Positions 1,589-20,841 of a stretch of DNA of 41,598 nt are shown in pieces. The position numbers were made by a program, and so were the translations under genes. Under the pieces are notes generated by a model, which saw only the letters and a program-made list of their open reading frames with translations, did no database searches and had not been told where the DNA came from. The DNA comes from Minisyncoccota bacterium (lineage in GTDB: Bacteria > Patescibacteriota > Minisyncoccia > Phycocordibacterales > UBA12079), in contig JAGLSI010000004.1 of assembly GCA_023135835.1 (NCBI GenBank), positions 1 through 41,598 of the forward strand, read 5' to 3'. Position 1 is the stretch's first letter. The number at the start of each line of letters is the position of its first letter.

Positions 1589-2698
1589 ATGAATAAAACA
1601 ACAAATTGGATAGTAGGAATAATTATTATAGCAGTAGTAATTTGGTTTGGTTTTCTAAACAAACCTACAGAACCAGTTTCAACTGAGCCTATTAAGATTG
1701 GGGTAATTTTACCTCTAACAGGTGATGCTGCTAGTTATGGTCAAACAGCTCAAAGAGGTGTTGAATTAGCTGTTGAGAAAATTAAAAATGAAGATGGTAT
1801 TGATGTTGAAGTTATCTTTGAGGATAGTCAAATTGACCCTGCAAAAGCGGTTAGTTCTTTACAGAAATTAATAAATTTAGATAATATTGATTATGTTCTA
1901 GGTTTTTCTAGTGGAGAGACTTTAGCAATGTGTCCCATTTCTAATTTAAATGAAGTTATCTTGATGACTATTGGAACTTCTCCTGAGATAACGGGATGTG
2001 GAGATTATACCTTTAGGGATAGTCCTTCTGATATATATCAGGGAATAGTTTTAGCTGAAAAAGTTAGTGATAATAATTATGAAAATATAGCTTTAATCTA
2101 TATTAATAATGATTATGGAGTAGGATTAAAAACTGAATTTGAAAAGAATTTTGAAGGAAATATTTTGCTAACAGAATCTTTTGGTTTGGGAGAGACTGAT
2201 TTTAGAACTCAGTTAACAAAAATTAAAACAGCAGAACCCGAAGCAATTGTTCTTATTGGAATATTTCCAGAGGTAGGCCGTTTATTAAAACAAAGAGCAG
2301 AGTTAGATATTTTAGCTCCTATCTTTGGTTCAGAGGGTGTAAAAAATGATTCTTTATTTGAGGAGGTTCCTGCAGATATGTTGGATGATATTTATGCTAT
2401 TTTTACTGCTCAATATGAAGGTTCTGAATATCAAGAATTTAAAAATGCACATTTACAAAGATATGGAGAAGAATATGGGGCATTTTCTGATTATGTTTAT
2501 GATAATATTTTGACTTTAGTAGATGCAATCAAGCGATGTAAGGATTTTAATGATGTAGAATGTGTGAAAGAAAATATTTATAAAACAGATATCGTTGGAG
2601 CAACAGGCCGTATTGAATTTGATGAAAACGGTGATGTTATAAATAAACTTTATAGTTTATATAAAGTAGAGAATAACGAGTTTATTGAAGTTGAGTAA
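1589..2698 (+). CDS. Branched-chain amino acid/amide ABC transporter substrate-binding protein (LivK-like), copy 1
   Basis: 369 residues. Residues 8-23 form an uncleaved-looking membrane anchor ending WFGFLNK. There is no lipobox Cys, so the domain is probably tethered by the helix rather than by lipid. From about residue 33 the protein follows the periplasmic-binding-protein type I pattern: IKIGVILPLTGDAASYG, EVIFEDSQIDPAKAVSSLQKLI, the subdomain hinge GIFPEVGRLLKQ and a C-terminal GRIEFDENGDV block. Its likely role is to capture an amino acid, amide or small organic ligand at the cell surface for LivHMGF. It is first of three paralogues (2753, 6498). Its first 62 bases are identical to those of the next gene. 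The ligand cannot be predicted from sequence alone. Confidence 0.88.
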   Translation: MNKTTNWIVGIIIIAVVIWFGFLNKPTEPVSTEPIKIGVILPLTGDAASYGQTAQRGVELAVEKIKNEDGIDVEVIFEDSQIDPAKAVSSLQKLINLDNIDYVLGFSSGETLAMCPISNLNEVILMTIGTSPEITGCGDYTFRDSPSDIYQGIVLAEKVSDNNYENIALIYINNDYGVGLKTEFEKNFEGNILLTESFGLGETDFRTQLTKIKTAEPEAIVLIGIFPEVGRLLKQRAELDILAPIFGSEGVKNDSLFEEVPADMLDDIYAIFTAQYEGSEYQEFKNAHLQRYGEEYGAFSDYVYDNILTLVDAIKRCKDFNDVECVKENIYKTDIVGATGRIEFDENGDVINKLYSLYKVENNEFIEVE

Positions 2699-2718
2699 AA
2701 ATTGTTAATAATTAATAG

Positions 2719-2744
2719 CCCTAATCATTAAAGCTAAGCGGGCA
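2719..2744 (+). repeat. Degenerate copy of the 28-bp repeat upstream of the second binding protein
   Basis: 26-bp unit CCCTAATCAT...CGGGCA, in the same orientation and at about the same distance from the ATG (2753) as the copy at 1551. The inner palindrome is eroded (CTAAGCGGG in place of ATGATCGGG). Confidence 0.55.
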
Positions 2745-2752
2745 AGAAAAAC

Positions 2753-3853
2753 ATGAATAAAACAACAAATTGGATAGTAGGAATAATTATTATAGCAGTA
2801 GTAATTTGGTTTGGGTTTTTGAATAAAGCAGATGATCAAATACCTAGCGAAAAAGAAACTATTAAAATAGGGGTGTCTATTCCATTGAGCGGAGATGTTG
2901 CTTTTTTAGGAGAAGGAGTTAGAGACGCAATGCTTTTAGCTAAAGAAAACCTTGGTTATACAAAATATAATTATGAAATAATATTTGAAGATGATCAATT
3001 TAATTCAACAAATACACTAACTGCTGTGAATAAATTAATAAGTATTGATAAAGTTTCCGTAATTTCGTCTTTAGGTTCTAATCTTGGTAACGTTGTTTCT
3101 CCTATCGCAGAAGAAAATAAAATAGTTCATATAAATATAGGAGCTTCAGATTCTAATGTAGCAGAAGGTTATTATAATTTTATTCATTGGACACAACCAT
3201 CTGAGGAGGTTAGAATTCTTGTTGAGGAATTGAAAAAGAGGGGCATTAAAAAAGTAGGTATTTTTGTATGGAATCAACAAGGAATGGTTGCTGTAATTGA
3301 TGAATTTAAAAATAAAATAAAAGATACTAATATTGAAATAGTAGCAGAACAGGTACACAATGAAGGAGAAAAAGATTTTAGATCATCAATATTAAAAGTA
3401 AAATCAAGTGGTGCTGAAATTTATCTTTTAGCGACAAAGTCTCCTGAAGTTGAAATATTAACAAAGCAAATTAAAGAAGCCGGAATAAGTATACCTATTA
3501 CAGCTATTGAGTCTTTTGAACTTTCTGATCAAATAGATTTATTTGAAGGAAATTGGTTTGTTAGTGCAGCAAGTCCATTAAATAGTTTCAATAGTGAATT
3601 TAATGAAAAGTATGAAAGAAATCCTTCTTTTGGAGCTGCTAATGCTTATGATTTAATAAATTTAATAGTTATGGCTTCTGAGTCTAAAAAAACTTCTACA
3701 AAACCAACGACAGAAGAAATCGCTGAGGAATTACTTAAAATTAAAAGTTTCTTTGGAGCTTTGGGAGAATTAAATGTTATGGAAGATGGGATTATTTGGT
3801 CAGAAGCTTCAGCTAAAGAAATTAAAAACGGAGTGGTTGTTGAATTAGAATAA
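2753..3853 (+). CDS. LivK-like substrate-binding protein, copy 2
   Basis: 366 residues. Its N-terminal anchor is identical to copy 1 over about the first 25 residues, even at DNA level (62 bases), while the binding domain is strongly diverged. It starts IKIGVSIPLSGDVAFLGEG and continues with IIFEDDQFNSTNTLTAVNKLI and a type I binding-protein fold. Divergent ligand domains on a shared anchor suggest different substrates feeding one permease. It lies 54 bp after copy 1 and is followed by a strong terminator at 3871-3914, so copies 1 and 2 probably form one transcript separate from livHMG. Confidence 0.86.
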   Translation: MNKTTNWIVGIIIIAVVIWFGFLNKADDQIPSEKETIKIGVSIPLSGDVAFLGEGVRDAMLLAKENLGYTKYNYEIIFEDDQFNSTNTLTAVNKLISIDKVSVISSLGSNLGNVVSPIAEENKIVHINIGASDSNVAEGYYNFIHWTQPSEEVRILVEELKKRGIKKVGIFVWNQQGMVAVIDEFKNKIKDTNIEIVAEQVHNEGEKDFRSSILKVKSSGAEIYLLATKSPEVEILTKQIKEAGISIPITAIESFELSDQIDLFEGNWFVSAASPLNSFNSEFNEKYERNPSFGAANAYDLINLIVMASESKKTSTKPTTEEIAEELLKIKSFFGALGELNVMEDGIIWSEASAKEIKNGVVVELE

Positions 3854-3870
3854 TTTTTAAAATCCCAAGC

Positions 3871-3914
3871 TTACAAACAAAAAACTGCTTATATAGGCAG
3901 TTTTTTGTTTGTAA
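3871..3914 (+). terminator. Intrinsic terminator after the binding-protein pair
   Basis: Perfect 18-bp stem (3871-3888 with 3897-3914) with an 8-nt loop and a T-rich right arm. It is one half of a terminator-plus-promoter cassette repeated at 7634-7709. Confidence 0.8.
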
Positions 3915-3936
3915 ATAAATAATTTAGATGTATAAT
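3909..3936 (+). promoter_or_regulatory. Promoter of livHMG
   Basis: TATAAT at 3931-3936 with TTGTAA 16 nt upstream, overlapping the right arm of the preceding terminator. The ATG at 3948 is 11 nt beyond the -10 box, leaving a leader of only about 5 nt and no Shine-Dalgarno site. Confidence 0.6.
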
Positions 3937-3947
3937 TTATTTTAATT

Positions 3948-4811
3948 ATGGAAATTTTTATCCAATTAACTATTAATAGCATAATCGCTGGTTCAATTTA
4001 CGCTCTGATTGCTTTGGGCTTTAATTTAATTTTTGGGGTTTCTAAATTTTTTGACTTAGGTTATGGAACGATGGCGGTTGTTGGGGGTTATTCTGTATTG
4101 TATTTTGGGAAAATGTTGGGATGGAATATTTTTCTGAGTATTTTAATCGGAGTTATTTTAGCTGGTTTAATTGGTTTCTTAATTAATAAATTTATATATC
4201 AAACTCTTCGTCAAAGAAAAGCTTCAAATCTTGTGTTGATTATTGCTTCATTAGGTGTGTTTACAGTGATTCAAGCAGTAACAGCGATGTTATTTTCTAG
4301 TCAATTTCAAACTCTTTCCCAAAATATAGGGCAAAATACTTATAATATTTTTGGGGGAATAATTACTCAAATACAGTTAATTATTTTGATGTTTACTATT
4401 GTTATTATGTTAGCTTTGGCTTGGATGATGAAAAAGACAATGTTCGGTAAGGCTATAAAAGCTGTTGGTGATGATGAGGAAGTCGCTAAGATAGTTGGGA
4501 TTGATACAAATAAAATAATAGCTTATGTATTCTTTATTGGTTCTGCTATTGCTGGGCTAGCAGGTATTTTAATTGGTTTTGATACTGGGCTTGAACCAAT
4601 AATGGGAATGAAATTGATTTTAAAAGGGGTGGTGGCTTCTATAATTGGAGGGGTAGGAAATGTTTATGGTGGGGTAGCGGGAGCTTTCTTTTTAGGTTTT
4701 ATTGAAAATTTTGGCATTTGGAAATTATCAGGAGAGTGGCGAGAAGCTATTGCTTTTGTAGTTTTAATTTTGTTTCTTCTTTTTCGTCCACGGGGAATTT
4801 TTAAAAAATAA
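3948..4811 (+). CDS. livH: Branched-chain amino acid ABC transporter permease LivH
   Basis: 287 residues, strongly hydrophobic with about eight membrane segments. The N-terminus (NSIIAGSIYALIALGFNLIF) and C-terminal SIIGGVGNVYGGVAGAFFLG are characteristic of LivH-type permeases, and the EAA-like cytoplasmic loop lies around AVGDDEEVAKIVGID. It is one half of the channel that imports the ligand delivered by the anchored binding proteins. It ends 2 bp before livM, a tight operon. Length is normal for the family. Confidence 0.92.
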   Translation: MEIFIQLTINSIIAGSIYALIALGFNLIFGVSKFFDLGYGTMAVVGGYSVLYFGKMLGWNIFLSILIGVILAGLIGFLINKFIYQTLRQRKASNLVLIIASLGVFTVIQAVTAMLFSSQFQTLSQNIGQNTYNIFGGIITQIQLIILMFTIVIMLALAWMMKKTMFGKAIKAVGDDEEVAKIVGIDTNKIIAYVFFIGSAIAGLAGILIGFDTGLEPIMGMKLILKGVVASIIGGVGNVYGGVAGAFFLGFIENFGIWKLSGEWREAIAFVVLILFLLFRPRGIFKK

Positions 4812-4813
4812 TT

Positions 4814-5680
4814 ATGGAATATTTTATACATCTAGGAATCTTATTTACAATTTATACTATTTTAGCTGTTAGTTTAAATCTTGTGGTTGGTTATACTGGA
4901 CTTCTTTCTGTAACCCATGCGGCTTTTTATGGAATTGGAGCTTATACTACAGCCCTTTTATTAACGCAGACAGGTATTGGGTTTTTTACATCTATTGTTT
5001 TGGGGGTGGTTTTGACTGTTATTATAAGTTTCCTAATTGGGCTTGTATTAAGTAGATTTAGAGATGATTATTACGCTCTAGCTTCTTTAGGTTTTAATGT
5101 AATCGTGTTTAGTATTTTTCTTAATTGGCAGGAATTAACAAGAGGTCCTTTAGGTATTCCTGGGATTTCAAAACCTGAATTATTTGGGTTTAGTTTTTCT
5201 TCCAATTTTTCATATTTAATACTTACTATTATATTTGCAGTTTTAGTTTATCTTGTGTCATCTTTTATTGTTAATTCTTCTTTTGGAAGAGTTTTAAAAG
5301 CGATTCGTGAAGATGAAAAAGCTATACAAATCTTTGGATATAACACCCAATATTATAAATTGGTAATCTTTGTAATTAGTGCAGGGATGGCTTCCATCGC
5401 TGGTTCATTTTTTGCTTCGTATATAACATTTGTAGATCCTTCTTCTTTTTATATTATGGAATCAATTTTTGTTTTAACCATTATTATTTTAGGGGGTTTG
5501 GCAAATTTAAGAGGAGCTGTTTTAGGGGCTTTAATTTTAATTTTATTGCCAGAAGCTTTGCGTTTTGTAGGCTTTCCTTCAGATATAGCTGCTCAAATGA
5601 GACAAGTTATTTATGGATTAATCTTAATATTATTAATGTTATATCGTCCACAGGGATTAAAAGGGGAATATAAAATTTAG
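4814..5680 (+). CDS. livM: Branched-chain amino acid ABC transporter permease LivM
   Basis: 288 residues, multi-pass. Family blocks include LSVTHAAFYGIGAYTTALL near the N-terminus, RAIREDEKAIQIFGYN-like coupling-loop sequence (here KAIREDEKAIQIFGYN) and ILGGLANLRGAVLGA near the C-terminus. It is the second half of the membrane channel. It follows livH by 2 bp and precedes livG by 3 bp, so all three should be translated from one mRNA. Confidence 0.92.
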   Translation: MEYFIHLGILFTIYTILAVSLNLVVGYTGLLSVTHAAFYGIGAYTTALLLTQTGIGFFTSIVLGVVLTVIISFLIGLVLSRFRDDYYALASLGFNVIVFSIFLNWQELTRGPLGIPGISKPELFGFSFSSNFSYLILTIIFAVLVYLVSSFIVNSSFGRVLKAIREDEKAIQIFGYNTQYYKLVIFVISAGMASIAGSFFASYITFVDPSSFYIMESIFVLTIIILGGLANLRGAVLGALILILLPEALRFVGFPSDIAAQMRQVIYGLILILLMLYRPQGLKGEYKI

Positions 5681-5683
5681 AAT

Positions 5684-6421
5684 ATGAGTACTGTTTTAAA
5701 AACAAAAAAAATAACTAAGAATTTTGATGGTGTAAAGGCTGTTGATTCTTTATCTATTGAGATTAAAAAAGGAAAAATAACAGGGATTATTGGTCCAAAT
5801 GGTTCAGGCAAAACTACTTTAATTAATCTTTTAACAGGAATGTTTCCTTTTGACGCTGGGAGTATTTTTGTAAATGGCTCCAAGGAACTTTTCAAAATTA
5901 ATTCTTATGATATTAGAATTTTTAGAGTAACGAGGACTTTTCAAAATATTAGGCTTTTTGAGCAAATGACAGTTTTAGATAATATTTTAGTGGTACTTAC
6001 TAAAAGAAATATTTCAGGTTCTTTATTTGAAAAATATAAACAATTTCATTATGAACAGGCAAAGGTTGTTTTAGAAAAAGTGGGGCTTTGGGGTAAGAAA
6101 AATGAATTAGCAATTAATTTATCATATGGACAAAGAAAGCTTTTAGAAATGGCTCGTGTTTTAGCCACAAAAAGTGATATTTATTTCCTTGATGAACCTT
6201 TTGCTGGGCTTTTTCCTGAAATGGTGAAATTGATTTCAGAGATAATTAAAGAATTAAGACAACAAGGTAAAACAGTTATTTTAATTGAGCACGATATGAG
6301 TTTAATTCGCGAACTTTGTGATTATGTTTTTGTGATGGAAAGCGGACATTTATTAGCAGAAGGAAAAGCTAATGAAGTTTTAGAAAACAAAGAGGTTGTT
6401 GAAGCTTATTTGGGGGAATAA
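5684..6421 (+). CDS. livG: Branched-chain amino acid ABC transporter ATPase LivG
   Basis: 245 residues. Walker A GPNGSGKT at 37-44, signature LSYGQ at 146-150, Walker B IYFLDEP at 166-172, and the switch His in IEHD. The LSYGQ variant and the long segment between Q-loop and signature are typical of LivG rather than LivF. It hydrolyses ATP on the cytoplasmic face for import. Its stop is 77 bp before the third binding protein. Confidence 0.92.
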   Translation: MSTVLKTKKITKNFDGVKAVDSLSIEIKKGKITGIIGPNGSGKTTLINLLTGMFPFDAGSIFVNGSKELFKINSYDIRIFRVTRTFQNIRLFEQMTVLDNILVVLTKRNISGSLFEKYKQFHYEQAKVVLEKVGLWGKKNELAINLSYGQRKLLEMARVLATKSDIYFLDEPFAGLFPEMVKLISEIIKELRQQGKTVILIEHDMSLIRELCDYVFVMESGHLLAEGKANEVLENKEVVEAYLGE

Positions 6422-6497
6422 ATCTGTTTATTGCAAAAAAAAACAATTTTGCTATTATTTAACTAATATATTATTAATAATTAAATTAAAAAATAAG

Positions 6498-7613
6498 ATG
6501 AACAAAAAATTAAGTTGGGGAATAGGAATTATTGTGGCAATAGTAATAATTTGGTTTGGATTCTTTAATAAACCAAGTGAACCAGTTTCAACAGAACCGA
6601 TTAAGATTGGAGGTTTATTTGGACAAACAGGATTTGCGGCTTTTGCTGGGGAAGCATCAAAAAATGGTTTTATAATGGCGATTGAAGATTCAGGAATAGA
6701 TGTTGATTATGTAATAGAAGATTATAATTCAGATTTAAAAACAACAGTATCAGCCGCTAAAAAATTAATTGATATAGATAAAGTATCTGTTATTGTTGGT
6801 CCTGAATGGGTTGAGTTTGGAGAAGTAATAGTCCCTATTTCAGAAGAGACAGAAACTTTGTTTATTTCTCCTTGGATGAATTTAGAATTAGATTGGGCAA
6901 AGTCTCCTTATTATTTTTCAATGACACCAAGTAATCGAAATATGATAAGAGAAGAAATTAAATATATGGAGGATAAAGATATGAATAATATAATAATAAT
7001 TTATCATAACAATTCATTTGCATTGGCTAGTATAAATTTACTTAAGGATGAGTTATTAAAAAATAATAATATAAAAATAGTTGAAGAGGTAAAAGTAGGG
7101 CAAGACCAAACTGATTTTAGGACAGAATTAACTAAGATTAAAGAAAATAATCAGTATGATGTTATTTATACTGTATTTGCTACAGATGATGGACAAGGAG
7201 TTTTCAATAAGCAATTAAAAGAACTCGGAATTGATTCTCCTGTTTTCTTAAGTTTGGCTAGAGCAGAATCTAACATTTTATTAGAAAGTTTTGGGGAATA
7301 TACTAATGGAATGATTTATTCCAGTTTTATAAAAAACAAAAAAGGTGAAGATTTTAGTAAAAAATATGAAGAAAGATTTGGTGTAGAACCGCTCGCTTTG
7401 AGCGCAGCAGGAGCTTATGATGCTACTACATTGATATTAGAAGCAATGAAAAAAGGAGCTAGAACTTCCGAAGAGGTTAAGGAATATTTGTTAAAAATAA
7501 AAAATTATAAAGGATATTCAAATATAATTAATTTTAATGAAAGTGGTCAAGTAGTAGGTGGTAGTCCTGTTATAAAGAGAGTTAATGGAAATAATCCGGT
7601 AATTTTAAGATAA
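6498..7613 (+). CDS. LivK-like substrate-binding protein, copy 3
   Basis: The best start is the ATG at 6498 (MNKKLSWGIGIIVAI), because it restores the same anchor architecture as the other two copies; an upstream in-frame extension overlaps livG and looks artificial. 371 residues: anchor 6-22 ending WFGFFNK, linker PSEPVSTEPIKIG nearly identical to copy 1, then a type I binding domain with VEDYNSDLKTTVSAAKKLI-like sequence (here IEDYNSDLKTTVSAAK). No lipobox Cys. It sits between livG and livF, so all three binding proteins flank the permease genes. The ligand is unknown. Confidence 0.85.
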   Translation: MNKKLSWGIGIIVAIVIIWFGFFNKPSEPVSTEPIKIGGLFGQTGFAAFAGEASKNGFIMAIEDSGIDVDYVIEDYNSDLKTTVSAAKKLIDIDKVSVIVGPEWVEFGEVIVPISEETETLFISPWMNLELDWAKSPYYFSMTPSNRNMIREEIKYMEDKDMNNIIIIYHNNSFALASINLLKDELLKNNNIKIVEEVKVGQDQTDFRTELTKIKENNQYDVIYTVFATDDGQGVFNKQLKELGIDSPVFLSLARAESNILLESFGEYTNGMIYSSFIKNKKGEDFSKKYEERFGVEPLALSAAGAYDATTLILEAMKKGARTSEEVKEYLLKIKNYKGYSNIINFNESGQVVGGSPVIKRVNGNNPVILR

Positions 7614-7633
7614 AATAAACTGATAAAATTTTT

Positions 7634-7676
7634 TTACAACAAAAAACTGCTTACATGAGCAGTTTTTTGTTTGTAA
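7634..7676 (+). terminator. Intrinsic terminator between binding protein 3 and livF
   Basis: A stem of about 17 bp with one bulge, near-identical to the terminator at 3871-3914. The similarity continues into the promoter and start codon that follow. Confidence 0.78.
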
Positions 7677-7698
7677 ATAAATAGTTTAAATGTATAAT
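7671..7698 (+). promoter_or_regulatory. Promoter of livF (copy of the livH promoter)
   Basis: TATAAT at 7693-7698, 11 nt before the ATG at 7710, with the same surrounding bases as the livH promoter. Over about 77 bases the two cassettes differ at about six positions. Confidence 0.6.
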
Positions 7699-7709
7699 TT
7701 ACTTTAATT

Positions 7710-8444
7710 ATGGAAAACGAAATCCTATTACAATTAAAAAATGTGGCGGTGCATTATGGGGGAGTTAAAGCTCTTGATGGTGTTGATATTGCTTTGGATG
7801 AAGGTGAGATTGTAGCTCTAATGGGTCCAAATGGAGCAGGGAAGTCAACTGTGTTAAAAGCTTTATTTGGGTTAGCTCCAATTAAATCAGGAAAAGTGTT
7901 GTGGCACGAAGATGAAATTAATCCAATTCCACATAAAATTATTCAAAAAGGAATAGCTTTTGTTCCGCAAGGGAGAAGGGTTTTTACTCACCTAACTGTT
8001 GAGGAAAATTTAGAAATTGGAGGTTTTACTGTTCGTGATAAAGTAGAGTTAAAAAGAAGAATTAATGAAGTTATGGAAATGTTTCCTGTTTTAAGACAAA
8101 AAAGGAAAGCAAAATCAGGGACGCTTTCAGGAGGGCAACAACAAATGTTAGCTTTGGCTCGTGGTTTGATGACAGATCCTAAGATTTTACTTTTAGATGA
8201 ACCTTCTCTTGGTTTATCTCCTAAAATTGTAAAAGAAGTTTTTGCAAAAATTAAAGAAATAAATTTAAATCGTAAAACAGCCATTATGATTGTAGAGCAT
8301 AATATCAAGTCTTTATTGAGTATTGCTGATAGGGCTTATGTGCTAGATAAAGGAAAAGTTGTTGCTAAAGATACGGCAGAAAATATTACTAATAGTGATG
8401 TTTTAGAAAAAGTATTTATGGGGAAATACACAAAAAGTATCTAG
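7710..8444 (+). CDS. livF: Branched-chain amino acid ABC transporter ATPase LivF
   Basis: 244 residues. Walker A GPNGAGKST at 39-47, signature LSGGQQQM from 139, Walker B LLLDEPSLGLSP from 160, switch His in VEHN. VPQGRRVFTHLTVEENLEIG is a hallmark of LivF. It pairs with LivG as the second nucleotide-binding subunit. It has its own terminator-promoter cassette, so its dosage may be uncoupled from livHMG. An imperfect inverted repeat (ATTACAGCG ... CGTTGTAAT, 8450-8491) after the stop may end transcription. Confidence 0.92.
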   Translation: MENEILLQLKNVAVHYGGVKALDGVDIALDEGEIVALMGPNGAGKSTVLKALFGLAPIKSGKVLWHEDEINPIPHKIIQKGIAFVPQGRRVFTHLTVEENLEIGGFTVRDKVELKRRINEVMEMFPVLRQKRKAKSGTLSGGQQQMLALARGLMTDPKILLLDEPSLGLSPKIVKEVFAKIKEINLNRKTAIMIVEHNIKSLLSIADRAYVLDKGKVVAKDTAENITNSDVLEKVFMGKYTKSI

Positions 8445-8629
8445 TAATTACAGCGTTTGGAGTCTAAATTGTCTGCAGGCGTTGTAATTTATTTATTGTA
8501 ATTCTTTTTTAAGGTTGTAAGTAATTGTGTAATTTATGGCAAAATTTAAAATTCCTAGATAAGATTATTTATATAATCATATCATAAATTTAAATATACC
8601 TAATTATTGGATAGATAATTTTTACAAAG

Positions 8630-8838
8630 AAAAAAGCCACCAATAAGCTTTAGACGTCTTCAGCTTCACAAGGTCTTTCCCTTGTGTGTACGGGTAATTT
8701 CTTTCCCTCAGACTGTTTCCCTCGCCGGTACTTTAGTCTTATACAATTTGGTGACTTGGCCAATCTTTGCGTTTTTGCCGTATAGCTTGTACGGATTACA
8801 ATAAAAACGCGTGAGCAGTGTGGCCGAGTGGTCTGCTC
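8630..8838 (-). ncRNA. Candidate structured non-coding RNA of unknown family (about 205 nt)
   Basis: Read on the minus strand this has the layout of an independent RNA gene: a -10 box (TATAAA, 8850-8845), a predicted start at 8838, and an end in a run of six U after a closing helix. Visible helices in 5'-3' order are GAGCAG/CTGCTC (8838-8813 area); GCGTTTTT/AAAAACGC enclosing CCGTA/TACGG; a closing helix GTCACCAA (8755-8748) with TTGGTGGC (8643-8636), with a G-U pair only in the minus-strand RNA; AGACT/AGTCT; and CACAAGG/CCTTGTG. The motif AGGGAAA occurs three times in or beside hairpins. I compared it mentally with tmRNA, RNase P, SRP, 6S and common riboswitches and found none of their signature sequences. 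There is no protein-coding gene across it. Confidence 0.55.
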
Positions 8839-8844
8839 TAGATC

Positions 8845-8873
8845 TTTATACTTTCTGTTCGGTAGATTATCAT
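8845..8873 (-). promoter_or_regulatory. Promoter of the candidate RNA at 8630-8838
   Basis: On the minus strand: ATGATA (-35, 8873-8868), a 17-nt spacer, then TATAAA (-10, 8850-8845). The predicted start falls on the first base of the GAGCAG helix. Confidence 0.45.
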
Positions 8874-8932
8874 ATTTTTATTAAAAAGACAATAAAAACA
8901 ACCAACACTCTTGTGCAGGTTTTTAAGTTTTT

Positions 8933-8963
8933 AAAAAACTACTTTCCTTTTTTAGTAGTTTTT
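8933..8963 (-). terminator. Intrinsic terminator overlapping the end of the 40-residue basic protein gene
   Basis: On the minus strand AAAAACTAC pairs with GTAGTTTTTT. The left arm and loop are coding and the stop codon lies in the right arm. Confidence 0.6.
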
Positions 8964-9061
8964 CTTTTTGCTAACATTTCTCGTTTAATTGTAAGTCTTT
9001 TTACTGTTTTCTTTGAACGAGATGTTTTCTTTTTATCTAAACCAGTTCTTCTTTTTGCCAT
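8939..9061 (-). CDS. Small highly basic protein (40 residues)
   Basis: Starts with ATG at 9061 and ends with TAG at 8939-8941. The sequence begins MAKRRTGLDKKKTSRSKK and ends KRKTTKKGK; about 45% of residues are Lys or Arg, as in small ribosomal or nucleic-acid-binding proteins. I do not recognise a family. Support comes from a TATAAT box (9076-9071, minus) 9 nt before the ATG and from a terminator that overlaps the stop codon, giving a compact promoter-gene-terminator unit. An overlapping plus-strand reading frame across 8811-9272 has no such support. Confidence 0.6.
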   Translation of the reverse strand: MAKRRTGLDKKKTSRSKKTVKRLTIKREMLAKRKTTKKGK

Positions 9062-9070
9062 GATAGGTGT

Positions 9071-9076
9071 ATTATA
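9071..9076 (-). promoter_or_regulatory. -10 box of the small basic protein gene
   Basis: TATAAT on the minus strand, 9 nt before the ATG, so the leader would be only a few nucleotides long. Confidence 0.45.
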
Positions 9077-9107
9077 CACTATCTTATTAAAAATAAAAGT
9101 TAATATT

Positions 9108-9139
9108 AAAAAACACGGCTCAATTAAGCCGTGTTTTTT
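9108..9139 (-). terminator. Intrinsic terminator of the secreted coiled-coil protein gene
   Basis: Perfect 13-bp stem (AAAAAACACGGCT with its complement) and a 6-nt loop, A-rich on the left and T-rich on the right, so it can work in both directions. It lies 22 bp after the stop at 9161. Confidence 0.8.
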
Positions 9140-9160
9140 AATAAAATCTAAAGGTATTTG

Positions 9161-12791: not shown

Positions 12792-12835
12792 AACAACAAA
12801 ATTTAAGGTTTTAATTAAGATTTTGTTGTTTTTTT
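12792..12835 (+). terminator. Intrinsic terminator of the zinc-ribbon protein gene
   Basis: AACAACAAAAT pairs with ATTTTGTTGTT (12820-12830), followed by a T run. Confidence 0.72.
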
Positions 12836-12843
12836 GTTGGGTA

Positions 12844-12897
12844 GGGAATAGAAAAACCGCACAAGAGAAAAATTGATTGGTTTTTCTTTGTGCGGTT
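12844..12897 (-). terminator. Terminator-containing 54-bp direct repeat, copy 1
   Basis: A 54-bp sequence identical to 13570-13623. It contains a long hairpin, AACCGCACAAGAGAAAAA with its complement (one bulge), around the loop TTGATTGG. Copy 1 lies between convergent genes, just beyond the stop of the 169-residue protein at 12929. Confidence 0.8.
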
Positions 12898-13438: not shown

Positions 13439-13569
13439 TTTAACTTCCTCCTGAATAATGATTTTTAAAAATAACAAATTAATCTATTTTAAATATATAA
13501 CTATTTATCAAATTAGTCAATGTTTAATCAGCTACTTAAATAAAGCTTTGATTTTTTATTTGTTGAAGA

Positions 13570-13623
13570 GGGAATAGAAAAACCGCACAAGAGAAAAATT
13601 GATTGGTTTTTCTTTGTGCGGTT
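13570..13623 (-). terminator. Terminator-containing 54-bp direct repeat, copy 2
   Basis: Identical to 12844-12897. It begins inside the stop codon of the 63-residue gene (13622-13813), so it terminates that transcript and stands upstream of the gene at 12929-13438. The same promoterless arrangement, gene then hairpin, occurs in both units. Confidence 0.8.
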
Positions 13624-15243: not shown

Positions 15244-16149
15244 GTGTATAAAGAAAAATCTATATATAATTCAAGAAAAAAGTTACTAAACTTTCTCGAA
15301 GTAAGAGAGAATTTTTTGTATAGTGATTTTTCTAAAAAGTATTTTTTAAAAGAACTACCAAAGAAAAATGGTGGTTTAAGGCCAATAAAACCTCCTGTTA
15401 AAAAACTAAAACTTATCCAAAGGAAAATACTTGATGTAATTTTAGTAAAACAGGAAGTCTTACCTTCTGTATATGGGTTAGATAAGAGTAAAGGAATTTT
15501 AGATAATGCTCGTAGACATCAAGTAAATTCTGATTATTATTTAGTTAATTTAGATATTGAGCAATTTTTCCCGAATGTTAAATATAAAACGGTCAAAAAA
15601 ATCTTTCGTAAATTAGGTTTTTCAAAAGATTGTGCAAATCTTTTAACTAAAATTTGTACAATAGATAAAAGTATTCCACAAGGTTCTCCTACAAGTCCTT
15701 ATTTATCTGCTCTGGCTTTGGAAAAATTAGATAAAAATATATTTAATTTTTGTAAAAAGAATAAATTTATTTTTACTAGATATTTTGACGATATAACAAT
15801 CTCAGGGGAAATAATTAGAGAGAAAAATATAGAATACATAGAAAATCAAATAAAAAAAGCGGGTTATATTTCTCATCCAGATAAGAAAAACTGGTTTAAA
15901 CCAAAGGAACAAAAAATAATAAATAATGTAATTGTATTTTCTGATTTTTTTGATGTAACAGATTCTTATAAAGAAAAGATTAGAAAGTCTTTTTTAGTAT
16001 ACAGAGAAAATAGAAATATAAGAGCTTGGAGAGTGTTTATAGGGAATATGGCTTTTTACATATATGTAAACAAAGATAAAGCTTTAAAATTATTTAAGGA
16101 TATTACAGGAGTTTCTTTTAAAGATAGAAATTTATTGGTAGCTTATTAA
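15244..16149 (+). CDS. Retron-type reverse transcriptase
   Basis: Start is GTG at 15244; an in-frame stop lies three codons upstream. 301 residues, the usual retron RT length. Conserved blocks in order: LRPIKPP, the retron-specific NAxxH motif in GILDNARRHQ (about 94-103), LVNLDIEQFFPNV, FRKLGF...LTKIC, IPQGSPTSPYLSALAL, and the catalytic YFDDITIS in place of the usual YADD. The retron VTG motif appears as INN in KIINNVIVFSD, and the C-terminal IRAWRVFIGNMAFYIY matches the thumb-like end of Ec86 RT. In retrons this enzyme makes the RNA-linked DNA that controls a toxic effector. Here the only candidate partners are the type III restriction genes 60 bp downstream. Confidence 0.88.
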   Translation: MYKEKSIYNSRKKLLNFLEVRENFLYSDFSKKYFLKELPKKNGGLRPIKPPVKKLKLIQRKILDVILVKQEVLPSVYGLDKSKGILDNARRHQVNSDYYLVNLDIEQFFPNVKYKTVKKIFRKLGFSKDCANLLTKICTIDKSIPQGSPTSPYLSALALEKLDKNIFNFCKKNKFIFTRYFDDITISGEIIREKNIEYIENQIKKAGYISHPDKKNWFKPKEQKIINNVIVFSDFFDVTDSYKEKIRKSFLVYRENRNIRAWRVFIGNMAFYIYVNKDKALKLFKDITGVSFKDRNLLVAY

Positions 16150-16209: not shown

Positions 16210-18228
16210 ATGAAAAATTTAAATAAATATGATAAAGAGTATTTAATTAAGCTTCTAAAAGATGAAAAAGATTTTCCGTTAGATTATAAATATAAACTTT
16301 TTCCAACGAAGCAAAAAGAATATGAGCTTGCATATGAAGGAAAAATGAGAAAAGAAGATTTAATTGCAAATGAAGATGGTGTTTTTCCTGTTCCATTGCA
16401 AGTAGAAAAAGTCTTTAACGGAGATGAATATAAAATGTTTGATGATGATTGGAAAAATATGATTGTGTTTGGCGATAATCTACAATTTCTCAAAACGGTT
16501 TATGAAAACAAAGACCCTCTTATCAAAAACAAAGTAAAGGGAAAAGTAAAGCTTATTTATATTGACCCGCCATTTGCTACTGCCGATGAATTTAAAAATA
16601 AAGAAGGAGCAAAAGCGTATACCGATAAAAAGAAAGGCGCTGAATTTGTAGAATTTTTACGAAGAAGACTGATTTTAGCACGAGAGATTTTAGCTGATGA
16701 TGGATGTATCTTTGTACATTTAGATCAAAAAATGAGCCATTATATTAAAATTTTAATGGATGAAGTTTTTGGGAAACAAAGCTTTGTAAATGAAATAATT
16801 TGGGGATACAGAATTCAGGGAGTTGGTAAGAAATTTTGGGCTAGGAAACATGATACAATTTTTTATTATAGAAAATCAGGGAATTATACATTTTACCCTG
16901 AAAAAGAAAAAAATATTTACGAGAATCCTTTTATTGATACTAAAGTTCAGAAATCTATCATAGAAAAACTAAAGGAAAAAGACCGAAAAATTATAACAGA
17001 AAATTTAGATAATAATAACAGTATTCCGTATAGATATAAAAAATATCTTTTTGATACATACTATTCTGAAGTTTATGTTAGGGATGTTTGGGATTGTGAT
17101 TATACAAAACCTCTAATTAGTGGTTCAGCAGAATATTTTAACTATCCAACACAAAAACCAGAAGGATTATTTGCAAGAATAATTAAATCTACAACCAATA
17201 AAAATGACATTGTTTTAGATTTTTTTGGTGGTTCAGGTTCAACTATGGCAGTTGCAGAAAAACTTGGCCGTAAATGGATTACTTGTGATTTAGGCAAATT
17301 ATCTCACTATACTATGCAAAAAAGAATTTTGCAGATTCAAGATTCTAAAGATTTAGAAAATCTAAAAGAAAAATATGGAAAGAAAGCAAAAAGTTTTGTT
17401 ACTGCTCAGCTTGGTATGTATGATCTTAAAAAAGCATTAGATTTAGAATGGAAAAAATATCAAGAATTTGTATCAGGACTCTTTGAAGTAGAAGTTAAAA
17501 AAAATATAATTTCAGGATTTGAATTTGATGGGAAAAAAGGAGATTACCCTGTTAAAATATTTGATTATCGTAAATTTAAAGATTCTTCAATTAATGAAAG
17601 TTATTTGAAAGAAATGCATTCTGTTGTTGGTAAAAAAGCGAGCGGAAGAGTATATATAATATCACCTGCGAATTTTGTAGATTTCTTAACAAATTATCAT
17701 GATATTGATGGAATAAAATACTATTTCCTGAAAATCCCGTATCATGTTATTAAAGAATTGCACAAAATGCCTTTCCAAAAACTCCGACAACCACAAAGCA
17801 AGAAAAAAGTAAATGATCTTGATGAGGCGGTTGGTTTTCACTTTATTCGACATCCAGAAGTAAAATCACAACTCAAAAAGAATAAAAATGGTTTAAAAAT
17901 ACTTATCAAGAGTTTTATTAGTCATGAGCTTGAATCTGACAAAACGCAAGACGAAAAAGGGATGAAAAATTTTGAAACACTTTCGGCAGTTTTTGTTGAT
18001 AAGAACTATAACGGCAAAGCATTTGAAATGGACGAAGCTTTTTTTGCCGATGAATTATTACCGAAAAAATCAAAGAAAAGTGATGATGAAAACATAAAAA
18101 AAGAATTGAAAAAATTACAAAAAAAGGGATTGGAAATAAATCTTAAAAAATCTGAACTTGGAAAACAAATCATGGTGATTTATACGGATATTTACGGAAA
18201 TGATTTTACTGAAACTTTTGATATTTAA
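16210..18228 (+). CDS. mod: Type III restriction-modification DNA methyltransferase (Mod)
   Basis: 672 residues. The motif order is that of a beta-class N6-adenine methyltransferase: catalytic DPPF at 119-122 (LIYIDPPFAT), a target-recognition region about 190-310, then the S-adenosylmethionine site FFGGSGSTMAVAEKLGRKW from 338. The long C-terminal part (about 400-672) is typical of type III Mod subunits, which also dock Res. It methylates one strand of an asymmetric site; the site cannot be read from the sequence. It overlaps nothing, follows the RT by 60 bp and precedes res by 6 bp. The codon bias toward A and T matches the genome, so transfer, if any, is not recent. Confidence 0.93.
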   Translation: MKNLNKYDKEYLIKLLKDEKDFPLDYKYKLFPTKQKEYELAYEGKMRKEDLIANEDGVFPVPLQVEKVFNGDEYKMFDDDWKNMIVFGDNLQFLKTVYENKDPLIKNKVKGKVKLIYIDPPFATADEFKNKEGAKAYTDKKKGAEFVEFLRRRLILAREILADDGCIFVHLDQKMSHYIKILMDEVFGKQSFVNEIIWGYRIQGVGKKFWARKHDTIFYYRKSGNYTFYPEKEKNIYENPFIDTKVQKSIIEKLKEKDRKIITENLDNNNSIPYRYKKYLFDTYYSEVYVRDVWDCDYTKPLISGSAEYFNYPTQKPEGLFARIIKSTTNKNDIVLDFFGGSGSTMAVAEKLGRKWITCDLGKLSHYTMQKRILQIQDSKDLENLKEKYGKKAKSFVTAQLGMYDLKKALDLEWKKYQEFVSGLFEVEVKKNIISGFEFDGKKGDYPVKIFDYRKFKDSSINESYLKEMHSVVGKKASGRVYIISPANFVDFLTNYHDIDGIKYYFLKIPYHVIKELHKMPFQKLRQPQSKKKVNDLDEAVGFHFIRHPEVKSQLKKNKNGLKILIKSFISHELESDKTQDEKGMKNFETLSAVFVDKNYNGKAFEMDEAFFADELLPKKSKKSDDENIKKELKKLQKKGLEINLKKSELGKQIMVIYTDIYGNDFTETFDI

Positions 18229-18234
18229 TAGAAT

Positions 18235-20841
18235 ATGATTATGCAAGATATTAAAATTTACAAGCAAAAAGATTTAGTTTTGAATGTTTATCAAGACTAC
18301 GATCCGATCAAACTTGATTTGGACGCGTGGGATTCTTTTTTGAATAAACTTTGTACCAACAGAACTTATCAAGTGAAAGCAATAAAAAATGCTGTAATTT
18401 TTCTTGCCTCTGGAAGATATACTAATACAGAAATTTTAGTAGAAGAAAATTACAAAAAAAATGCAGAATTGCAGCTAAAATATTCTTCACTCGATGATTA
18501 TAAAAAACATTTACAACTTCCAAATAAACTTTTTGCAAATATTGATTTAGCAACAGGAACAGGAAAGTCGTATGTCATATACGGTATTGCTCAAATTATG
18601 CTTGGACTTGGTTTGGTAGATAAAGTTTTGGTTTTATGTCCGTCACTTACGATTGAAGACGGACTTATGGAAAAATTTGAAGGGTTAAGTGGAGATGCAA
18701 AACTTAAAAAAGTCATTCCATCAAAATCTCAATATAAAAATCCAAGTATTGTTGATGCTAATGTAACAGTAAAAAACGGCAGTATTTGTGTTGAAAATAT
18801 TCACGCAGTTTATGAAACAACAGGTTCGTCTATTAATGACAGTTTTAAAGGGCAAGGTGAAAGAGTTTTGGTTTTGAATGATGAATCACATCATATTTTT
18901 AATAAAATTTCTGGAAATAGTTCAGAAGCAAAAGGATTGAAACGTTGGAAAGAATTTTTGCTTAATCCCGATTTTAACTTCAAATATATTTTAGGTTTTA
19001 CTGGAACCGCATATTATGAAAATGAATATTTTAACGATATTATTTATCGCTATTCTTTAAGAGAGGCTATTGAAGATAGAATTGTAAAAAATATTGAATA
19101 TGTGCAAAAAGATGACAGTTCAGGAATTGACGAGAGATTTCAAAAAATATATCACAACCATAAAGAAAATTTTGATACATATTCAAAAATCAAACCATTA
19201 TCGATTTTGATTACAAGAGATATTAAAAAAGCAAAAAATCTTCGTGAAGATTTTTTGGACTTTCTTGGAAAGAAGGAAGGAATATCACGAGAAAGTGCCG
19301 AGGAAAAAGTTTTGATTGTTACCTCGCACAAAGACCATAAAGCAAATTTACCAAAACTAAAAACTGTTGACGAACTAGATGACCCCACAGAATGGATTAT
19401 CTCTGTTTCTATGCTTACTGAGGGTTGGGATGTAAAAAATGTTTTTCAAATTATTCCGTGGGAGGATAAGGCTTTTAATTCAAAACTTCTAATTGCACAA
19501 GTTTTAGGAAGAGGTTTGAGAATACCAGAAGCCTATAAAACACCACAGCCACGAGTTATAGTTTTTAATCATGATTCTTGGAGTAAAAATATTAAATCAC
19601 TTGTTGATGAAGTTTTGGAAATTGAAACAAGAATAATAAGCGAAATTATAAAAACTGGGACGAGAGCAAGATATAACTTTGATGTTTATAATTTAGATTA
19701 CACAAAAGAAGAAGTTGAAATTGCTCATAAACCGAATCCTGTCGTTAATTATTCTCGTATAGAAAAAGAAGGAATCAAACTTGACTCTCAAGTTATTAAA
19801 ACAGAGAAAGGAACATCCTATGAATCAATCGTAGGCGGAGCTGTGCGAGATAAAAATTATCTGATTGAATATGGTACATGGACAGTCCAAGAGATTGTTG
19901 AGCGAATTTATGAAGAATTTGAGATTAGAGACTGGGAGGGTAGAATTTTGCAACTTGGTAAAGAACAATACACACAGAACGATCTTCCTCCAAAAGAAAA
20001 AATAAAAGAAATCATTCTTAAATCAATGAAAAATGTTGAGATTAGAGGGGATAGAGTGATTGAAAAAAATGTGAATAAAATTTTAAATACTTTCGCTACT
20101 TTATTGCGAAAGAAAAGTAAAACAGTTATTCCAAAATTAAAAATTAATGATCCTGTTTTGATTTCTACAAAAAATATAATAAGAGAGAGTTCTGGAATTG
20201 GAAATTTTAGACGAGGATATTCCTTGTTTTACACAAATGACTGGGTAAATGAAATTATAAACAAGGAGCAAAAAGAGATTCTAAATCAAATTATCAATGA
20301 CGAAAGTTTGCCAAAAAGTGCTGACAAAAATCAAAATGAATTTTTATTCAAAACTCCTGTGAATGTTGTGTTTACGAATGCTGAACCAGAGAGAAAATTT
20401 GTAGAGAATTTATGTAAAAAAGATGTTGCAGAAAAAATTGAAAGTTGGCTTAAATCACGAGATAGAGGATTTTATGGAATTGAGTATAGTTTGCGATATG
20501 GAAGTAAAGAGTCAAAAACTAGAAAATATACTCATCCTACTTTTAATCCTGATTTTTTCATTAAAGTTAAAAAAGGTGATATTGAATATTTTTTGGTTGT
20601 TGAAATAAAGGCAGACAAAGATAATTGTGATGAAAATAAAGCAAAATATAAATATGCAAAAGAACATTTTGAACGATTGAATGAAAAATTGGCTAAACAA
20701 AACATTAAACAAAAATATATATTTCATTTTTTAAGTCCAAATGGGTATACAACGTTTTTTGAGTATTTGAAAGATAGGAGATTATTGAAAGGACAAAGTA
20801 AATTTAGGTGTGAGTTAGAAAATTTACTAGAAGAATCATAA
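18235..20841 (+). CDS. res: Type III restriction endonuclease subunit (Res)
   Basis: 868 residues, slightly short for the family. Superfamily 2 helicase motifs: I LATGTGKSYV (about 105-114), II LNDESHH (214-220), III GFTGTAYY, and VI region LIAQVLGRGLRIPE. The C-terminal PD-(D/E)xK nuclease shows PD at 772-773 and EIK at 790-792 (VVEIKAD). The start MIMQDIK is 6 bp after mod; the second Met is two codons later. With Mod it should translocate or slide on DNA and cut near unmethylated head-to-head sites. The gene appears intact, so the system is probably functional. It ends at a bidirectional terminator. Confidence 0.92.
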   Translation: MIMQDIKIYKQKDLVLNVYQDYDPIKLDLDAWDSFLNKLCTNRTYQVKAIKNAVIFLASGRYTNTEILVEENYKKNAELQLKYSSLDDYKKHLQLPNKLFANIDLATGTGKSYVIYGIAQIMLGLGLVDKVLVLCPSLTIEDGLMEKFEGLSGDAKLKKVIPSKSQYKNPSIVDANVTVKNGSICVENIHAVYETTGSSINDSFKGQGERVLVLNDESHHIFNKISGNSSEAKGLKRWKEFLLNPDFNFKYILGFTGTAYYENEYFNDIIYRYSLREAIEDRIVKNIEYVQKDDSSGIDERFQKIYHNHKENFDTYSKIKPLSILITRDIKKAKNLREDFLDFLGKKEGISRESAEEKVLIVTSHKDHKANLPKLKTVDELDDPTEWIISVSMLTEGWDVKNVFQIIPWEDKAFNSKLLIAQVLGRGLRIPEAYKTPQPRVIVFNHDSWSKNIKSLVDEVLEIETRIISEIIKTGTRARYNFDVYNLDYTKEEVEIAHKPNPVVNYSRIEKEGIKLDSQVIKTEKGTSYESIVGGAVRDKNYLIEYGTWTVQEIVERIYEEFEIRDWEGRILQLGKEQYTQNDLPPKEKIKEIILKSMKNVEIRGDRVIEKNVNKILNTFATLLRKKSKTVIPKLKINDPVLISTKNIIRESSGIGNFRRGYSLFYTNDWVNEIINKEQKEILNQIINDESLPKSADKNQNEFLFKTPVNVVFTNAEPERKFVENLCKKDVAEKIESWLKSRDRGFYGIEYSLRYGSKESKTRKYTHPTFNPDFFIKVKKGDIEYFLVVEIKADKDNCDENKAKYKYAKEHFERLNEKLAKQNIKQKYIFHFLSPNGYTTFFEYLKDRRLLKGQSKFRCELENLLEES

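Follow-up and report, generated by a model that had tools for sequence, protein, structure and literature searches.

A probable genus-restricted structured RNA gene on an intergenic minus strand of a Patescibacteria genome

The stretch of DNA analysed here (41,598 nucleotides, referred to as the window) is contig C30 of an incomplete Minisyncoccota genome of 572,592 bases in 35 contigs. Its intergenic region 8857-8630 carries, on the minus strand, a candidate non-coding RNA (ncRNA) of about 205-225 nt, the parts of which follow one another as promoter-like boxes, leader, 5' hairpin, second hairpin, closing helix enclosing the core and U6 tract (Table 1). The gene upstream encodes a 40-aa lysine/arginine-rich protein (MAKRRTGLDKKKTSRSKKTVKRLTIKREMLAKRKTTKKGK), which is conserved across much of the order and was not matched by any model of Pfam or NCBIfam. 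The RNA is followed by a convergent livF-like ABC gene. It belongs to a branched-chain amino acid type ABC transporter cluster (1589-8444) with three substrate-binding proteins and has no close orthologue in G003, the second species of the genus discussed below. The GC content, which was claimed from the letters alone to exceed that of the surroundings, is indeed 43% in the region and 46% in its core compared with 29.4% in the whole genome, and the level of the core is matched by just 0.5% of the 205-nt windows of the genome.

Table 1 Features of the candidate RNA locus (window coordinates; paired arms are given in minus-strand order)
Feature	Position	Strand	Description
Promoter-like boxes	8864-8892	-	TTGTCT (8892-8887), 17-nt spacer, TAATCT (8869-8864), TG extension
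Candidate ncRNA gene	8630-8857	-	88.8% identity over 214 nt to G003 contig C2, 19053-19263; fold z-score; no conserved ORF
5' hairpin	8813-8838	-	GAGCAG/CUGCUC with 14-nt loop; stem invariant; the two species score 125 and 120 bits with the R2 model
Candidate pseudoknot	8758-8825	-	loop GGCCA (8825-8821) with UGGCC (8762-8758); G-C to G-U in the homologue, pairing kept
Second hairpin	8769-8810	-	GCGUUUUU/AAAAACGC; inner CCGUA/UACGG (8794-8778)
Core domain	8634-8757	-	10-bp closing helix 8757-8748/8643-8634; encloses helix 8739-8735/8714-8710, hairpin 8686-8667 and hairpin 8666-8645; R1 model 168 and 176 bits
Helix AGACU/AGUCU	8710-8739 (8739-8735/8714-8710)	-	loop bears GUACC and GAGGGAAA; invariant, so covariation uninformative
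Candidate pseudoknot GUAC (8731-8728)/GUAC (8691-8688) and GGG/CCC (8707-8705/8694-8692)	8688-8731	-	invariant; a sequence possibility only
Hairpin CACAAGG/CCUUGUG	8667-8686	-	compensatory changes in two pairs (A-U to G-C; G-C to A-U)
Hairpin AAGCU/AGCUU	8645-8666	-	invariant
U6 tract, terminator-like 3' end	8630-8635	-	UUUUUU kept in the homologue; flank diverges beyond
40-aa basic protein gene	8939-9061	-	directly upstream of the RNA in both species; separate gene with own hairpin (about 8921-8900) and U-tract

A search with blastn over 148 relatives gave one strong match, in G003. Identity between the two sequences reaches 95-98% at places in the core and drops to 50-65% past the U-tract, and it is lost sharply at both edges of the RNA. 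No reading frame is conserved between the two species, the frames being broken by indels and stops. The −35 and −10 boxes proposed in the sequence-only reading are weak promoter-like elements, and their counterpart in G003, TTGTTT-17-TATTCT, retains both register and spacer, although the boxes score under the threshold of the consensus scan; TATGAT at 8874-8869 is an alternative −10 element. The 5' end would lie about 7 nt past the −10 box and is more likely to be near 8857 than near 8838, the end suggested previously. The conserved part begins at about 8840, and the leader between the boxes and the 5' hairpin is unconserved (13-48% identity to G003). The U-run assigned to a terminator does follow the closing helix, but this is not a simple terminator hairpin, as the arms of the helix enclose about 100 structured nucleotides, and the 3' end is absent from the output of the consensus scan.

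The minus-strand sequence folds with moderate stability (z −2.51 against dinucleotide shuffles, 3 of 200 of which were equally good), which upholds the nested helices read from the sequence. The fold of the plus strand taken alone is equally or more stable (z −3.17), so that the energy of a single sequence cannot set the strand. The consensus fold of the two species reached z −4.5 for the minus strand versus z −3.9 for the plus strand. The argument that a G-U pair in the closing helix fixes the orientation gained comparative support, since the U-G pair of the window is C-G in the homologue. Altogether, three G-U swaps between the species are tolerated only by the minus-strand RNA. In the second hairpin an A-U pair became G-U and was kept (inner helix), and one G-C pair became A.C and was lost. 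The candidate pseudoknot between the 5' loop and 8762-8758 contains just one varying pair. The longest invariant runs sit largely in unpaired junctions, as is expected for a folded RNA with a partner.

For the 61 proposed pairs, 99.2% of the pair cells are paired across the two species, and both pairs that changed on both sides lie in the hairpin 8686-8667. When the partners were slid, pairing fell from 99% to 31-42%, a difference that is in part circular, the two sequences being those from which the structure had been derived. The number of pairs changed on both sides was equalled in 126 of 500 shufflings and is therefore not significant, with two sequences from one genus. The check for covariance in the homologous region thus provided two compensatory pairs, three G-U swaps and 99% pairing, but covariation that is not significant by itself.

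Many intergenic segments of the window genome align with G003 at 85-95%, and by score the RNA would take about the sixth place of the 343 intergenic segments compared. Identity alone is consequently no proof of selection, because many intergenic segments are equally conserved, and the argument rests instead on the sharp edges, the GC content and the changes compatible with the predicted structure. The same background, together with the non-significant covariation, is what an explanation by non-functional DNA in which two close species have simply not diverged would draw on. We consider such an undiverged spacer distinctly improbable, since the immediate flanks go down to 13-65% identity, the GC content lies in the top 0.5%, and both z-scores (of the single fold and of the consensus) and the structure-compatible substitutions speak against it.

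No known RNA family was found at the locus. Rfam 15 at gathering score detected only tRNAs across the window, and at E<=10 over 8450-9160 the region was touched only by chance matches to SNORD46 and psRNA6. The Rfam search, put forward earlier as a way of recognizing a known family, therefore produced no credible match, and the absence of any signature of the common families was confirmed. It is extremely unlikely that the RNA is a strongly diverged universal RNA (RNase P RNA, tmRNA, SRP RNA, 6S RNA) or a fragment of rRNA, an explanation that is largely refuted. RNase P RNA (RF00010) has separate matches elsewhere in all four genomes of the genus (E 1e-7 or better, below gathering score). The tmRNA model (RF00023) did not match the RNA, and a tmRNA is present elsewhere in three of the four genomes, including the RNA-carrying G003 (on its contig C9); none was found in the incomplete window genome. 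There was no match to 6S RNA either, and the predicted fold consists of several hairpins and a multibranched core as opposed to a single long hairpin with a central bubble. The element AGUACC..GAGGGAAA resembles domain I of 23S rRNA by eye, which would favour an rRNA fragment, but the local similarity to 23S and 16S rRNA is at the level of shuffled RNA (36 of 200 and 73 of 200 shuffles as good). That no small SRP RNA (RF00169) was found in any of the four genomes (G000-G003) might suggest that the candidate fills this place; against this, no Ffh was detected with the E. coli protein in either carrier of the RNA (G000, the window genome, and G003), and the genus lineage may lack SRP. A universal RNA, moreover, would be expected also in G001 and G002, the other two genomes of the genus, which lack the candidate.

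All three AGGGAAA copies noticed in the sequence are present (8722-8716, 8708-8702 and 8682-8676), but only two of the three are conserved, the third being AGGAGAAA in the homologue. Such repeated GGGA-containing motifs recall the protein-sequestering RNAs of the CsrB/RsmZ type, although the candidate keeps two of three as AGGGAAA and tblastn found no CsrA in either carrier genome, so that a CsrA sponge was rejected. The negative results for CsrA and for Hfq in both carriers come from single queries against incomplete genomes and are weak. CRISPR-associated RNAs (tracrRNA, scoutRNA) were also rejected, since no array came to light when both genomes, except for masked stretches, were scanned for exact repeats.

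The order of genes around the RNA differs between the two species. The gene of a secreted coiled-coil protein lies upstream of the RNA in the window and downstream of it in G003, and the unit of the 40-aa protein gene and the RNA has thus changed place relative to this gene. In other relatives, the same 40-aa gene does not have the RNA after it. A cis-acting leader is marked by a conserved downstream gene on the same strand, and here the downstream gene is not the same in the two species. This change of gene order makes cis-regulation unlikely and action in trans likely, as judged from the genome comparison. An attenuator or riboswitch of the coiled-coil gene of G003, displaced in the window genome, is accordingly very unlikely. 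In G003 the RNA with its U-tract does share the strand of that gene and precedes it by about 110 nt, but in the window, where the coiled-coil gene is upstream and only the convergent gene follows, the RNA has not decayed, and the coiled-coil gene of G003 has its own promoter-like TTGATA...TATAAT past the U-tract.

A base-pairing antisense sRNA that regulates mRNAs, its fold serving merely as a stabiliser, is unlikely too. In its favour, sRNAs typically have such a size, a promoter of their own and a U-tract, and the long unpaired, conserved purine-rich stretches could pair. Joint duplex energies do not beat those of shuffled RNA, which makes antisense action less likely. Over 343 orthologous gene starts the best joint duplex had −80.6 kcal/mol, in comparison with an average of −78.0 for the tops of 10 column-shuffled RNAs; pairing to mRNAs was thus no better than shuffles. 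Moreover, the E. coli Hfq query finds nothing in either carrier genome. The candidate shares size, promoter, U-tract and narrow distribution with lineage-specific intergenic sRNAs ending in U-tracts, and differs from them in that its U-tract follows a long-range closing helix and that it gives no antisense signal. The loop 8832-8819 could form 13 base pairs, one of them a wobble, with the D-arm of the tRNA-Ser(CGA) of the window genome. This match of the 14-nt 5' loop is not kept by any tRNA-Ser of G003, and binding of tRNA-Ser was rejected, the match being treated as chance.

The distribution of the RNA was followed with covariance models of the core (R1) and of the 5' domain (R2). R1 found only the window genome and G003 among 297 relatives and, at a lax cut-off, in the family of 11 genomes; among 384 genomes drawn evenly from the class it found only the window genome. 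The R2 scan agreed with R1 in detecting the same two genomes only. The conservation expected of an RNA gene is hence present but narrow, covering two species. The RNA is missing from G001 and G002, and its absence from these two congeneric genomes and from about 300 relatives argues that it is not a core RNA. Weak R1 hits (about 22 bits) in three members of the order were rejected as their helices are broken, the ten pattern hits in GTDB genomes that were not self-matches were ascribed to chance, and the pattern hits in G002 near GAGGGAAGCAGTC are unrelated. Phage records, plasmid records and viral contigs contained no match to the RNA; the pattern hits in viral contigs misfit the model, and a viral or plasmid origin was rejected.

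Among known RNAs, the kind that comes closest in size and complexity is the raiA motif/ModT (RF03072), although the candidate fails the test of its model. This free-standing RNA of about 210 nt has a housekeeping promoter, helices and pseudoknots and conserved unpaired junctions, and acts in trans (PMC11706538, PMC11751092). The candidate resembles it in size, free-standing position, own promoter-like boxes, several helices, candidate pseudoknots and conserved junctions, and would resemble it in trans action. Unlike raiA, however, which occurs in over 2,500 species of Bacillota and Actinomycetota, it occurs in two species; its core is closed separately and comes after two 5' hairpins; and the RF03072 model gave no hit at E<=10 over 8450-9160.

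Taken together, a minus-strand gene for a structured RNA of no recognised family remains the best reading of the locus, given that there is no credible Rfam match, that a homologue exists in a second species with substitutions that preserve the structure, strand-specific G-U swaps and no conserved ORF, and that the promoter-like and U-tract flanks are conserved. The region 8857-8630 is probably a new, genus-restricted family of structured ncRNA of a known general kind. We propose, with roughly an even chance of being right, a free-standing gene that would be transcribed from its own weak housekeeping-type promoter into an RNA of about 205-225 nt ending at the U-tract behind the closing helix. 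The folded RNA, to which a protein or the ribosome would bind, most likely acts in trans as a regulator of the RNP type, working like raiA/ModT and not like an antisense sRNA. The comparison of the two genomes demonstrates conservation of sequence and fold, the strand, the lack of a conserved frame and the changed gene context; transcription, the exact ends, trans action, protein binding and function we infer, and the binding partner is a matter of pure conjecture. In a bolder version, to which we give a slim chance, the candidate would represent a new class of RNA, compact and pseudoknotted, that arose within one genus of ultra-small Patescibacteria and would serve as an abundant RNP or catalytically, in bacteria where neither Hfq nor CsrA nor components of SRP were detected.

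Little is known about the regulatory RNAs of Patescibacteria. A genus-restricted structured RNA in genomes where Hfq and CsrA were not found would offer a compact test case of how an RNA originates and works in minimal, host-dependent bacteria; if untranscribed, it would be merely a conserved spacer.

The window also contains, at 15244-16149, a retron-type reverse transcriptase (RVT_1; best PADLOC model RT_III-A, 3.7e-60) with YFDD and NAxxH-like motifs. It is immediately followed by a type III-like restriction-modification pair (16210-18228 and 18235-20841) and is absent from G003. No Rfam match was found in the stretch upstream of it. Despite the presence of this enzyme, a retron ncRNA was rejected as an identity of the candidate, since the reverse transcriptase is 6.4 kb away and G003 retains the RNA without it. 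Finally, an 88-nt direct repeat (12810-12897 and 13536-13623, 89% identical) occurs in the window, and a related 47-nt piece was found on contig C16.
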